The position numbers were made by a program, and so were the translations under genes. Shown here one piece after another: positions 26,240-29,525 of a stretch of DNA of 64,000 nucleotides. A model generated the notes under the pieces. The model made no database searches and was not told the DNA's origin. It was given only the letters and a program-made list of their open reading frames with translations. The stretch spans positions 3,348,001 to 3,412,000 of the forward strand of contig NZ_CP126241.1 of assembly GCF_030142075.1 (NCBI RefSeq). The letters are read 5' to 3'. Position 1 is the first letter of the stretch. Each line of letters begins with the position of its first letter. The stretch comes from Arthrobacter sp. zg-Y20 (lineage in GTDB: Bacteria > Actinomycetota > Actinomycetes > Actinomycetales > Micrococcaceae).

Positions 26240-26797
26240 TTGAGCACCACCATCCTGACCCTCGTCGGAAGCCTCCGCGCCGGATCCATCAACCGCCAGC
26301 TCGCCGAAGTGGCCGCAAGCGGTGCCCCTGAGGGCGTTGACGTGAAGGTATTTGACCGGCTGGGCGAGATCCCCTTCTACAACGAAGACATCGACGCCGA
26401 GGGCCTGGTTCCCGAACCCGCGCTGGCCCTGCGTGAAGCGGCTGCTGCCTCCGACGGCCTGTTGCTGATCAGCCCGGAATACAACGGCACCATGCCCGCA
26501 GTACTGAAAAACGCCATCGACTGGCTGTCCCGCCCCTTCGGCGCCAGCGCCGTGTCCGGAATGCCGACCGCCGTCATCGGTGCGGCCTTCGGCCAGTACG
26601 GCGGCGTATGGGCCCAGGATGATGCCCGGAAGTCCGTGGGCATTGCCGGCGCACGCGTCGTGGAGGAAGTGCGCCTGGCGATTGGCGGCTCGGTCACCCG
26701 CTATGCGGAAATCCACCCCAAGGACGACCCCGAGACGGTGGCCCAGCTCAATGAAGCCGTCCGCGTCCTCGCCGAGGCTTCCATTTCCGTAGCCTAG
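26240..26797 (+). CDS. NADPH-dependent FMN reductase
   Basis: A 185-residue flavodoxin-fold reductase. GSLRAGSINRQLA is the phosphate-binding loop for FMN, and SPEYNGTMPAVLKNAIDWLSRP is the conserved core motif of the NADPH-dependent FMN/quinone reductases. The start is a TTG with AGGAG nine bases upstream. The TetR operator upstream suggests induction by an electrophile or quinone, a common theme for this enzyme class. Confidence 0.93.
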   Translation: MSTTILTLVGSLRAGSINRQLAEVAASGAPEGVDVKVFDRLGEIPFYNEDIDAEGLVPEPALALREAAAASDGLLLISPEYNGTMPAVLKNAIDWLSRPFGASAVSGMPTAVIGAAFGQYGGVWAQDDARKSVGIAGARVVEEVRLAIGGSVTRYAEIHPKDDPETVAQLNEAVRVLAEASISVA

Positions 26798-26826
26798 GCG
26801 TCAAAACCGGCACCATTTCGCAGGAC

Positions 26827-26871
26827 AAACACAAAAGGGACGGACCCACATGGTCCGTCCCTTTTGTGTTT
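26827..26871. terminator. Strong bidirectional intrinsic terminator
   Basis: A perfect 20-bp stem with a 5-base loop; the outer part is A-rich on one side and T-rich on the other (AAACACAAAA and TTTTGTGTTT), so it can end transcription of the FMN reductase on the plus strand and of the small-peptide locus on the minus strand. Confidence 0.93.
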
Positions 26872-26902
26872 CTGCCGCACAGGTCCAGCGGACCCCGGCG
26901 CC

Positions 26903-27091
26903 TCAATACCAGGCCTGATCCGCCCACGCAGCATCCCGCAGATATTCGCGGGCCGGCCCAACATTCCACGCTTCACCGAAGGGTTCCAGCAGTCCGCTGT
27001 CCTTCATATCGGCCAGCAGATCTTCCGAGCAGCCCAGGACCAGACCCAGGTCTTGGGCGTCTGCCACCACTACCTCTTCTTGTTCGGCCAC
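26903..27091 (-). CDS. 62-residue hypothetical protein with aromatic C-terminus
   Basis: Acidic small protein downstream of the thiopeptide-type enzyme, ending in the aromatic tail AAWADQAWY. A GTG at 27091 is chosen because AAGGGGG lies eight bases upstream; a GTG at 27121 would add ten residues but has no ribosome binding site. The middle reads DLGLVLGCSEDLLADMKDSG and may be helical. No family was recognised. Thirty-three bases separate it from the upstream gene and the strong terminator follows. It might be a second precursor peptide, a leader-binding helper, or unrelated. Confidence 0.65.
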   Translation of the reverse strand: MAEQEEVVVADAQDLGLVLGCSEDLLADMKDSGLLEPFGEAWNVGPAREYLRDAAWADQAWY

Positions 27092-27124
27092 AGGCTGGGC
27101 CCCCTTCCCAATTGTGCGCACGTT

Positions 27125-28084
27125 TCAGCGCTTATCCAGCAGTACTGATTCCCGTTCCGGGCTCCAGGTGCGTGCGTACAGCCCCATGGCGGCTTCTTCC
27201 CGCAGGCTGAGACCAAGGCGGTTGAGGAGCATATGGGCTTGATATACCGTCAAGTGCTGGGCGCTACGGCTCAGCCGGGCCTTGTCCGCCCGGTAGAGGT
27301 AAGTGTCGATGCCGCGGAACCACCGGCGGCGCCAGTTTTCAACGGCCGATTCTGCTGCAGTGGCTGCCATTAGCCGGTGCGTCGGCATTACCTTGGCGCC
27401 TACCTGAACCGTCATTGCCTGCCGCACGCCTGCCGCCCGGGGGCCAAACCCGGCGGTGCAGCTGCGCAGGTGGCTGTCCCAGTAGTAGTCCCAGGACAAA
27501 CGGCGCCGGTCCGGCCAGGCCGAGGCGCGCGGTCCCTTCATCATGCTCCGGGCCGCGTCGAAGAGCAGCAGCGACCCGAGCGCCCACCGGTTTTGGACCT
27601 TGGGGAAACGCGCGGTTGCCCAGCTGGCCAGATCCGAGGAAAGTTCAAATACTTCTTCGGCGAGGGACAGCCCCTCCACCCCGCCGTACTTTGCGAGGTC
27701 CGCTTCGATCCGCGGGTCCTGAGGCTCTCCGCCGCCCGGGCTCAGCCGGTCGGTGGCGGGTTCAGTGAGCTGCTGGCTGGTCTCCAGATGGCCGATCACT
27801 CCGCTGGATTGTTCCTGCAGGGCCGGCAAAAGCGACTGCAGCCGGTCCAAGGTCTCGGTGGTTGCCAGCACCCGCATCTTTACGTGCGCAAAGGCCGGAT
27901 CCGAGCACCGGGTGAAATACCAGCGCTGGGCTCCCAGGACCTGCGCCTGCGCCGCCAGCGGGGTAACCAATTCTCCAATGATGCCGTCCGCTACATCGAA
28001 GCCCCCGGTATGGATGGAAAGTGACCACCAATGAGTGCCGGTTTGCGTCCGTGAGGCTGGTCGAACTGCAGCTAGCTGGCTCAT
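27125..28084 (-). CDS. Thiopeptide-type bacteriocin biosynthesis (SpaB_C-like) protein
   Basis: A 319-residue soluble protein whose N-terminal part (HWWSLSIHTGGFDVADGIIGEL, then RWYFTRCSDPAFAHVKMRVLA) resembles the thiopeptide-type domain found at the C-terminus of lantibiotic dehydratases and as stand-alone enzymes in thiopeptide pathways. There, members eliminate glutamylated residues or build the central pyridine ring. No dehydratase N-terminal domain (LanB_N) is present in the window. The ATG has GAGGGGAAAG about seven bases upstream. It lies 90 bases after a seven-codon ORF and diverges from a LuxR-type regulator. The family call is from recalled motif similarity. Confidence 0.75.
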   Translation of the reverse strand: MSQLAAVRPASRTQTGTHWWSLSIHTGGFDVADGIIGELVTPLAAQAQVLGAQRWYFTRCSDPAFAHVKMRVLATTETLDRLQSLLPALQEQSSGVIGHLETSQQLTEPATDRLSPGGGEPQDPRIEADLAKYGGVEGLSLAEEVFELSSDLASWATARFPKVQNRWALGSLLLFDAARSMMKGPRASAWPDRRRLSWDYYWDSHLRSCTAGFGPRAAGVRQAMTVQVGAKVMPTHRLMAATAAESAVENWRRRWFRGIDTYLYRADKARLSRSAQHLTVYQAHMLLNRLGLSLREEAAMGLYARTWSPERESVLLDKR

Positions 28085-28152
28085 GTGGATCTTTCCCCTC
28101 GGGGTTGGTTACCGCCGCTGGGGCGGGCCTGCATTGTTGTTATTTCCTGTGT

Positions 28153-28171
28153 TCGGCCCCTCGGGGGCCGA
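28153..28171 (-). terminator. Hairpin immediately after the seven-codon ORF
   Basis: An 8-bp perfect stem with a 3-base loop, TCGGCCCCTCGGGGGCCGA, begins three bases after the stop codon of the MKSWDWF ORF. No T-run follows. It could act as an attenuator, a processing stop that raises the short ORF over the downstream gene, or a partial terminator. Confidence 0.5.
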
Positions 28172-28174
28172 TGG

Positions 28175-28198
28175 TTAGAACCAATCCCAGCTCTTCAT
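28175..28198 (-). CDS. Seven-codon ORF MKSWDWF upstream of the SpaB_C-like gene
   Basis: ATG to TAA gives MKSWDWF. A very strong ribosome binding site, AAGGGGGA, lies eight bases upstream, better than most starts in the window, and a hairpin follows directly. Two of seven residues are Trp and one is Phe. Two readings are possible: a minimal precursor peptide modified by the adjacent enzyme, or a leader peptide sensing Trp supply and controlling the hairpin. The sequence shows the ORF and signals; translation and role are inference. Confidence 0.55.
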   Translation of the reverse strand: MKSWDWF

Positions 28199-28310
28199 GA
28201 TTGCTGTCCCCCTTGAATCTCTTGGCTGTTGCTCAGCCGGCACCTTGATTTGACTCCGAAAGCTTCCCCCGCCGCTGACGCGTCTGTAAATAGGCTCCGC
28301 TGCCCTGTTC

Positions 28311-28322
28311 CGGACATGGCCG
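28311..28322. promoter_or_regulatory. Palindrome copy A near the peptide promoter
   Basis: CGGACATGGCCG, one mismatch from a perfect palindrome, lies just upstream of a TATTTA -10-like box (minus strand, 28287-28292) and overlaps the expected -35. The same motif, perfect, recurs at 28429-28440. Likely binding site of the divergent LuxR-type regulator. Confidence 0.5.
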
Positions 28323-28340
28323 CTTCCGGCACCGGAACCC

Positions 28341-28381
28341 GGCATACCCGTGCCAAAATCGGACGCCTGAACGGGTATGCC
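28341..28381. repeat. 11-bp inverted repeat between the two palindromes
   Basis: GGCATACCCGT (28341-28351) is repeated inverted at 28371-28381 with 19 bases between. It lies midway between the two CGGACATG palindromes. It could be a second operator with widely spaced halves or a hairpin. Apart from this, the palindromes and the seven-codon ORF, the 28085-28556 region shows no gene. Confidence 0.55.
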
Positions 28382-28428
28382 CCACCTCTGCTTCCTGTAC
28401 CGGCAGCGCCGCCGTCGTTGGCATTAAC

Positions 28429-28440
28429 CGGACATGTCCG
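28429..28440. promoter_or_regulatory. Palindrome copy B near the regulator promoter
   Basis: CGGACATGTCCG is a perfect 12-bp palindrome matching copy A at 28311-28322 in eleven of twelve positions, and both are followed by TT two bases on. It lies upstream of a CATAAA -10-like box (28463-28468), overlapping the expected -35 of the plus-strand promoter. Confidence 0.5.
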
Positions 28441-28556
28441 ACTTTCCACAGTGTGTTGGCGACATAAAGCACTTTCGTAACGAGCGGACCGGAAACATGC
28501 TGTGCTGGGTAGGGTAGCCGTGGGGGCTTCAGCTTGCTGCTTTGAAAGGATTCGCC

Positions 28557-29525
28557 GTGCTGTCTCAGGTTTCGCTGGACGTCTACCGATTTGCCGTCAG
28601 CCGTCCCGGGTGGACGGCTGAAGATGCATCGGAGGCACTGGGATACACCAGCCGCTCCATTGACGCGGCCATTGCCGAGCTGACCTCCCGGTGCCTGCTG
28701 CTGGCGCAGGCTGCGGACTGCCCCAGCTACACCGCCGTCTCCCCTGACGTGGCACTGGCCGAACTGGTGGATCCGGACGAGCGGGCACTGCTGGAGCTGC
28801 GCGGCCGGATCAATTCCCGGCGCCGGGAAATGGCCGCCCTGACCCCCGCCTATGTGGAGGCACGCAAGCGGCTCGCGGCGGATTCCTCGGTGGAGGTGGT
28901 GGAGGACCAGGACAAGGTCCAGCGCGTCCTGATCGAATACGGGCGCAGCGCCACGGACCGCGTCCTGATTGCCCGTCCGGGCCAGGGGGCAAATGCAGAC
29001 ATCCACGAAGAGAGTGTGCAGAAGGACCTGGACCTGCTGCGCAGCGGCGTCCAGCGGCAGACGCTCTACCACTCCAGCACCCGGGACCACGTTCCCACCC
29101 GCAAGGCGGTGGAAACCATCACTGCGGCTGGCGGCCAGTTCCGCACACTTCCCTACATGCCGCTGCGGACACTGATTTTTGATGAGAAGGTCGCGGTGGT
29201 TGCCCGCCAACTGCATCCCGGAGACGTTGCCGGCCTGGTCATCCGCGATCCCAACCTCATCCGCATCTTTGGCCTGCTGTTCGAGTTCGCCTGGGGCCTT
29301 GCCGAGCCGTTTCTCACGGAGAATCCGGCCCGGGACGAGCTGACCAGCACCCAGCGCTCGGTCCTGACCGCCCTGGCCGCCGGATATTCCGATGAAGCCA
29401 TCGCCCGCCGGGTGGGTATCAGCGTCCGGACGTGCCGCCGGCACATTGCCTGGATGCTGGAGGAACTCGGTGCCGAGAGCCGGTTCCAGGCCGGAATCAA
29501 GGCCCACAAGGCCGGATGGATCTAG
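28557..29525 (+). CDS. LuxR-type regulator with TrmB-like N-terminal domain
   Basis: A 322-residue regulator. The first 70 residues form a TrmB-like winged helix (GWTAEDASEALGYTSRSIDAAIAEL), the middle is a sensor-like domain (about 100-250), and the C-terminus is a LuxR helix-turn-helix (RSVLTALAAGYSDEAIARRVGISVRTCRRHIAWMLEELGA). The GTG at 28557 is preferred to a TTG at 28542 because AAAGGA lies at a proper distance. It diverges from the seven-codon ORF and SpaB_C-like gene, and two matching palindromes in between suggest it controls both sides. Same architecture is known in actinobacterial secondary-metabolite regulators. Confidence 0.85.
   Translation: MLSQVSLDVYRFAVSRPGWTAEDASEALGYTSRSIDAAIAELTSRCLLLAQAADCPSYTAVSPDVALAELVDPDERALLELRGRINSRRREMAALTPAYVEARKRLAADSSVEVVEDQDKVQRVLIEYGRSATDRVLIARPGQGANADIHEESVQKDLDLLRSGVQRQTLYHSSTRDHVPTRKAVETITAAGGQFRTLPYMPLRTLIFDEKVAVVARQLHPGDVAGLVIRDPNLIRIFGLLFEFAWGLAEPFLTENPARDELTSTQRSVLTALAAGYSDEAIARRVGISVRTCRRHIAWMLEELGAESRFQAGIKAHKAGWI

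Follow-up and report, generated by a model that had tools for sequence, protein, structure and literature searches.

A seven-codon gene beside a lone LanB elimination-fold enzyme in Arthrobacter looks like the short end of a ribosomal-peptide family

The elimination proteins of class I lanthipeptide and thiopeptide pathways (the LanB C-terminal domain and the split LanB proteins), together with the pyridine synthases TbtD, PbtD and TsrL, are the closest known relatives of an enzyme that we analyzed in a stretch of 64,000 nucleotides from Arthrobacter sp. zg-Y20 (NZ_CP126241.1, positions 3,348,001 to 3,412,000; hereafter the window). The gene of this enzyme stands alone and is preceded, 90 bases upstream, by an open reading frame (ORF) of only seven codons, MKSWDWF. 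In contrast to the lanthipeptide and thiopeptide pathways, neither a glutamylation protein nor a YcaO protein was detected here in the searches described below, the core is devoid of cysteine, the position equivalent to NisB R786 is changed in 30 of 68 enzymes, and the slot upstream of the enzyme gene holds peptides with a W-x-W motif.

Several other described systems share individual features with this locus. Biarylitides (bytA/bytO) likewise have a tiny, unannotated precursor gene, which comprises 18 bp for five residues, with the aromatic residues of the peptide cross-linked (PMC13417212). Their enzyme, however, is a cytochrome P450, and none was found among the enzyme, the small protein, the regulator and the ten flanking proteins scanned at the window locus. 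Streptococcal leaderless communication peptides (LCPs) generally have 8–10 residues and are divergent from their Rgg regulator; these and the XIP/ComS and SHP peptides resemble the ORF studied here in being very short, leaderless or leader-bearing, in some cases rich in tryptophan, and encoded next to a regulator gene or divergently from it (PMC13361665). They differ in their Rgg-type regulators and their occurrence in Firmicutes, whereas the window family has a LuxR-type helix-turn-helix (HTH) regulator, a LanB-fold enzyme and relatives with tandem cores; no model of an Rgg/RRNPP regulator with a tetratricopeptide repeat-like peptide-binding domain is among the Pfam and NCBIfam matches of the regulator at the window locus. 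Finally, peptide aminoacyl-tRNA ligases (PEARLs) also represent a repurposed half of a LanB-type enzyme (PMC11962472), but it is typically the glutamylation-like domain that they retain and the elimination domain that is missing, making the window family their mirror image.

Comparing related genomes, we find that the locus is probably a minimal unit of the kind that produces ribosomally synthesized and post-translationally modified peptides (RiPPs), in which the lone enzyme with the LanB C-terminal fold modifies a W-[D/E]-W peptide. The enzyme matches Pfam PF14028 (Lant_dehydr_C, 7.4e-19) and NCBIfam TIGR03891 (51.0 bits, barely above the cut-off of 48.45), and by these profiles it belongs to the fold of the LanB elimination domain and SpaB_C. 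An earlier, sequence-only reading of this DNA had described a seven-codon ORF with a ribosome-binding site (RBS) upstream of a stand-alone SpaB_C-like enzyme gene and a diverging regulator; all of these are present. The enzyme was found in all 29 genomes of the genus examined, and in each of them an ORF ending in W-[DE]-W-[FLI] precedes the orthologous enzyme copy (these comparisons, within the genus and the family, were confined to enzyme matches starting no later than query residue 60). The ORF occurs in the genus in three forms, each tied to one enzyme group: the MKSWDWF form (once MMKSWDWF) in 12 genomes, including that of the window, with enzymes 95–97% identical to the window's; forms of 16–17 residues, for example MKKATAPVSIKSWEWF, MEKATGSTVSIKSWEWF and MNRIRISVAGSKSWEWF, in nine genomes (81–87% identity); and forms of 8–9 residues, such as MTKVWDWI and MTSKVWDWL, in eight genomes (76–80%; 67% over the aligned first piece for the G022 enzyme). 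In G006 (L099) and G022 (L030) the enzyme gene lies in two pieces, as if frameshifted, and the short ORF is still open.

Within the MKSWDWF clade (nine rows), 1 of 24 columns is variable in the ORF, and this one holds a synonymous GAT/GAC exchange; upstream, 7 of 24 columns vary, and downstream, 51 of 90. Across 25 rows of the genus, both tryptophan codons are invariant; the middle codon of W-x-W is GAC (10), GAT (7), GAA (6) or GAG (2), and the stop codon is TAA (14), TAG (7) or TGA (4). Codon-level variation combined with invariant tryptophan codons is what a translated peptide shows, and in these alignments the short ORF is conserved with coding-type variation. When the 260 bases upstream of the enzyme gene were shuffled 20,000 times with dinucleotides preserved, an RBS-preceded ORF ending in W[DE]W with no more than two further residues, a criterion fixed after the ORF had been seen, arose once. 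The sequence-only reading would have been undone by an ORF missing from homologous loci or kept only as an RNA structure; instead, the ORF is retained beside the enzyme. Its expected W-x-W-F pattern with synonymous changes was borne out for the conserved ORF and the GAT/GAC exchange but needs amendment as to the motif, which is W-[D/E]-W followed by a variable residue (F, L, I, P or none).

Longer counterparts occupy the same slot in other genera. The enzyme search was positive in 64 of 295 genomes of the family, and 37 of the 40 family genomes with an enzyme match outside the genus have a [WY]-x-W ORF in the slot (34 W-[DE]-W and one each of WGW, WAW and YDW). The tryptophan pair persists in nearly every locus, with tyrosine in place of the first tryptophan once. 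In most of these other loci the slot ORF has 44–93 residues and encodes a leader followed by one to six cores. The leaders begin with basic residues, continue with a hydrophobic stretch and in many cases close with an Ala-x-Ala-like end, a signal-peptide reading made by eye rather than with a signal-peptide program. Core types include SWDWPK, NWEWPK (three copies in Arthrobacter sp. 260, L136) and VWDWPQQ (four copies in L129/L061, six in L053/L060); further examples are those of Arthrobacter ruber (L133; MKKVLGATAGLLIVVGAVLPASQSISAASWDWPKSQATAGSWDWPK) and Arthrobacter sp. VKM Ac-2550 (L163; MFKKIAGITAGLLLAVGAVSAATPAVAADQSQQSNAIVTAAWDW), and A. agilis likewise has a leader-bearing tandem precursor. 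The three cores of Arthrobacter sp. H5 (L128) are preceded by MNKIVGA alone, and the ORF of Haematomicrobium sanguinis (L168), of 21–24 residues depending on the start chosen, ends in SGGIYDWPTVA, indicating that short or absent leaders also exist outside the window's genus. Of 110 W[DEGA]W copies, 108 have D or E in the middle (a share counted among D, E, G and A only) and one each has Gly and Ala there, and all four D/E codons are in use; the invariance of tryptophan in these copies is built in, since precursor ORFs were required to contain [WY][DEGAN]W. Stop codons in 73 distinct loci are TAA (47), TAG (22) and TGA (4). Precursor starts were picked by an N-terminal pattern written after the ORFs had been seen, and the long-precursor, 73-locus and 60-locus sets comprise enzyme matches starting no later than query residue 20. 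Given these longer slot ORFs with the same motif in other genera, the seven-codon gene is the shortest form in a graded range of lengths.

The ORF also has constant neighbors. Of 60 named enzyme loci, 51 have a W-x-W ORF, and among these a small protein is encoded in 49 (scored by its C-terminal motif in 45 and by tblastn at E <= 0.05 in 4) and the regulator within 4 kb in 48. In this comparison, the W-x-W ORF keeps company with its own enzyme type and not with orphan paralogues of the enzyme. The small protein corresponds to a 72-codon ORF that lies inside the interval of the sequence-only reading but went unnamed in its text; it belongs to the unit and is conserved, with the C-terminal stretch as its best-conserved part, and is predicted to fold as helix–helix–hairpin–helix (predicted local distance difference test score 76). 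In one genus, hardly anything of it is recognizable beyond the C-terminal stretch. The best models for the regulator in Pfam and NCBIfam are GerE/LuxR/NarL-type HTH domains; no Rgg model appears in either match list, and its N-terminal part has no Pfam match above the cut-off. All eight genomes of the 8–9 residue clade have the regulator, adjacent in three and about 9–12 kb away in five, where other genes intervene between regulator and precursor (two of these were read gene by gene). In L182 and L183 the interval is a carbohydrate metabolism-like cassette of about 9 kb, with ORFs that by eye resemble dihydroxyacetone kinase, triose-phosphate isomerase and transporters.

The equivalent of NisB His961 is retained in 66 of 68 W-x-W enzymes, compared with 3 of 17 orphan paralogues (lost in 14); in these residue counts L090/L091 were regrouped and L092 was left out. 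A quick maximum-likelihood tree of 88 enzymes, which left out 4 of the 73 loci with an enzyme reading of <280 aa, places the 23 short-precursor enzymes in one group (Shimodaira–Hasegawa-like approximate likelihood ratio test, SH-aLRT, 90), nested in a larger group (SH-aLRT 98) with 17 orphan paralogues and L092. The leader-bearing enzymes fall outside this larger group. The tree does not resolve how the short forms branch from one another, and the long branches of L092 and L049 join. On the simplest reading of this topology, the leader would have been lost before, or along with, duplication of the enzyme in the genus. Many species of the genus have several enzyme paralogues per genome (L031–L052, L138, L140, L143, L145, L149, L151, L152, L159, L170). 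Among the orphan paralogues, L034 and L042 adjoin ORFs resembling sugar ATP-binding cassette transporters, as named by eye, and in L042, L044 and L045 two-codon start–stop overlaps such as ATGAAATGAGCC occur at the start of several paralogue ORFs.

The sequence-only reading had noted that the window lacks a LanB N-terminal domain and a YcaO gene, and this can now be extended. No YcaO protein was found in the window's own genome by a search whose control responded in 5 of 14 cases. A profile built from four LanB-like proteins, run without a positive control, found nothing in the 29 genus genomes, as did a search with PF04738 described below; when the latter was applied to three family genomes with a LanB-like protein, it responded in G033 and G050 and was silent in G264, and these proteins score just 48.4, 30.1 and 19.3 bits on PF04738. 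The LanB glutamylation domain is likely absent from the genus. Nor is the core rich in Ser, Thr or Cys: it is W-[DE]-W, and the sole cysteine of the listed precursors lies in a leader. Beyond the family, a sister enzyme query (E <= 1e-10) found the enzyme in 9 of 396 genomes of the order and 1 of 396 of the phylum, and profile A1 (E <= 1e-12) in 9 of 394 of the class, seven of the nine being new. The five closest of these (35–39% identity) include L195, which adjoins a PF04738 protein. Scanning L195–L199 for RBS-preceded W[DEGA]W ORFs of <=100 residues yielded a single one, in L198, that reads as part of a membrane protein. These five loci, from another actinobacterial family, encode a long LanB-like ORF (with PF04738 in L195) and a separate elimination-type protein, and they also carry small ORFs rich in Ser, Thr and Cys, of which MTHNPHESVDLYAEDLAELQAEDLPGDTALASLSTASSTSSASCPVSSASSATTASSYG in L197 is an example. 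An Arthrobacter-like copy of the unit is present on a contig labeled Vibrio cholerae strain 35D (L162), probably through assembly contamination.

The comparison of loci thus shows a conserved, coding-type ORF with longer counterparts that co-occurs with the enzyme, the small protein and the regulator, and by these alignments the minimal locus has the general features of a RiPP locus, namely an encoded precursor and a co-conserved, adjoining enzyme of a modifying type. We propose that the product-bearing part is a W-[D/E]-W peptide encoded by the short gene. The stand-alone enzyme, which shares its fold with thiopeptide pyridine synthases and with the LanB domain for glutamate elimination, would modify this peptide, perhaps together with the small companion protein made downstream. 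A dedicated regulator would control the unit through a divergent promoter region that contains the two operator-like sites. Most relatives outside the genus would make the peptide behind a signal-peptide-like leader, often in tandem copies; in the window's genus, we infer that this leader was lost, rather than gained elsewhere, with a reduction from about 45 residues to 16–17, 8–9 and 7, so that the enzyme would now have to recognize the core itself. The W-x-W core would then be the substrate that is chemically changed. The members of the LanB elimination fold known to us need no redox cofactor, and this, together with the tolerance for Gly or Ala in the middle of the core and the retention of the tryptophan pair, points to an enzyme that recognizes its peptide through, or alters it at, the aromatic pair.

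Several observations weigh against this proposal. The job known for the LanB elimination fold requires a glutamylated substrate, and PF04738 detected no LanB N-terminal domain in the 29 genus genomes, with a limited sensitivity (0 of 14 built-in controls responded). The R786 equivalent is R or K in just 38 of the 68 W-x-W enzymes, and the enzyme gene is split in two in 2 of the 29 genus genomes. Three family loci (L090, L091 and L093; enzyme identity 27–38%) have no [WY]-x-W ORF, each adjoining a protein with a PF04738 match. At the nine named orphan paralogues among the 60 loci, the W-x-W ORF, the small protein and the regulator are all absent nearby; each of these enzymes comes from a genus species that has a W-x-W locus too. 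No peptide exporter, protease or radical S-adenosylmethionine protein occurs among the ten flanking proteins scanned, which do include a major facilitator superfamily transporter, and no sigma-70 promoter was called in 26780–28700. A role of the product as a small signal would be an extension by analogy with the streptococcal LCP, XIP and RtgS peptides (PMC13361665).

The same features can be read differently. Leader peptides are commonly as short as seven codons, and the ORF might serve as one, with translation of, or stalling on, WDW-stop refolding hairpins that set enzyme expression. A hairpin does follow the stop codon directly, the enzyme gene is preceded by another conserved element (CCGCCCCAGCGGCGGTAACC, which resembles GCCCCAGCGGGG in other genera), and in the consensus fold the CUGG of the core codons pairs with the CCAG of this element. 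This fold is weak, however (−7.9 kcal/mol, with 1 of 13 pairs changed on both sides), W-x-W persists despite the replacement of Asp by Glu and of F by I or L, and an attenuator has no need of the long ORFs with signal-like leaders and up to six tandem cores that fill the slot in most loci outside the genus; we regard such a role as unlikely.

A similarly improbable reading casts the peptide as a short pheromone that stays unmodified, akin to the LCPs or XIP, and that the enzyme-fold protein only binds, stores or destroys. A leaderless aromatic peptide of 7–9 residues, divergent from its regulator and with sister lineages that have signal-like leaders, would suit this role, and streptococcal LCPs are similar, listed XIP/RtgS peptides containing WW or WGW (PMC13361665). 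The catalytic histidine equivalent is nevertheless kept in nearly all W-x-W loci, as catalysis would predict, and the regulator matches LuxR/NarL-type HTH models, with no Rgg model in its Pfam and NCBIfam match lists. The conserved, tryptophan-bearing C-terminus of the small protein (YLRDAAWADxxW) raises a further point against our proposal, in that the small protein could be the real substrate and the W-x-W peptide a cofactor, inducer or inhibitor. The near-constant presence of the small protein at W-x-W loci and the conservation of its C-terminal stretch, nearly all that is recognizable in one genus, fit this idea, which we consider quite unlikely. Modification of the W-[D/E]-W peptide by the lone enzyme remains our preferred interpretation.

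Positions of the unit's features in the window
Feature	Coordinates	Strand	Basis or remark
Putative seven-codon precursor ORF MKSWDWF, DNA ATGAAGAGCTGGGATTGGTTCTAA	28175..28198	−	ORF reading and genus comparison
Ribosome-binding site AAGGGGGA of the seven-codon ORF	28207..28214	−	present too in MKSWDWF-clade relatives
Stand-alone LanB C-terminal (SpaB_C) fold enzyme, 319 aa	27125..28084	−	Pfam and NCBIfam matches
Conserved small protein, C-terminal motif YLRDAAWADxxW	26903..27121	−	likely start GTG 27091
Divergent regulator, C-terminal LuxR-type HTH	28542..29525	+	PF00196 2.3e-9; likely start GTG 28557
Operator-like site CATGTCCGGAACAGGGCA, precursor side	28301..28318	−	by-eye pattern
Operator-like site CATGTCCGGTTAATGCCA, regulator side	28419..28436	−	by-eye pattern
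Block GGGGGAAGCTTTCGGAGTCAA 5′ of the short ORF, alike in genus orthologues; perhaps promoter or leader	28250..28270	−	read by eye
GC hairpin immediately 3′ of the short ORF stop codon	28154..28170	−	weak covariation
Element around CCGCCCCAGCGGCGGTAACC, between precursor and enzyme, alike in relatives	28107..28129	−	
Inverted repeat at the end of the unit, possible bidirectional terminator	26827..26871	.	fold energy vs shuffles

The GTG starts given for the small protein and the regulator were judged likely from relatives. The two operator-like sites, both CATGTC sites, lie 118 bases apart, start to start, between regulator and precursor. Their pattern, drawn by eye and after the fact from the window locus and its relatives, has two matches in the 3.53 Mb genome, both in this intergenic region; a shorter operator motif is missing in many relatives, including most of the 16–17 residue clade. 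The terminator that the sequence-only reading placed at the end of the unit corresponds to an inverted repeat of 20 pairs (minimum free energy −39.7 kcal/mol, equaled by none of 200 shuffles), but a simple terminator scan of the same interval as the promoter search called none, including at this repeat. The suggestion that the ORF would be among the shortest precursor genes also stands in part: it has only seven codons, but the biarylitide gene is shorter (PMC13417212).

In the literature searched, which missed most subscription papers, the peptides SWDWPK, WDWPK, KSWDWF, VWDWPQ and NWEWPK occur in no paper, 'thiopeptide-type bacteriocin biosynthesis' is not paired with Arthrobacter, and a family combining W-x-W cores, a signal-like leader with tandem cores, a lone elimination-type enzyme and leaderless forms was not met. 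We view the family as a variant of RiPP-type peptide loci that may prove to be a class of its own. That it does constitute such a class, defined by an elimination-type domain acting without a glutamylation partner on a W-x-W core, by a leader shrinking to a leaderless seven-mer and by a possible regulated signal, is a tentative view that we hold with a little less than even confidence.

Most RiPP enzymes locate their substrate via a leader. In the family described here, the precursors of a single enzyme lineage include both forms with a signal-like leader and as many as six cores and a seven-mer with no leader at all, so that leader dependence and its loss can be compared side by side. If our interpretation is true, the LanB elimination fold would gain a job without glutamylation, as the counterpart of the PEARLs. 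Genes this short evade annotation, and other such loci have therefore probably gone unseen. As far as sequence comparison can tell, this appears to be a family of ribosomal peptides in which the precursor has dwindled to almost nothing.

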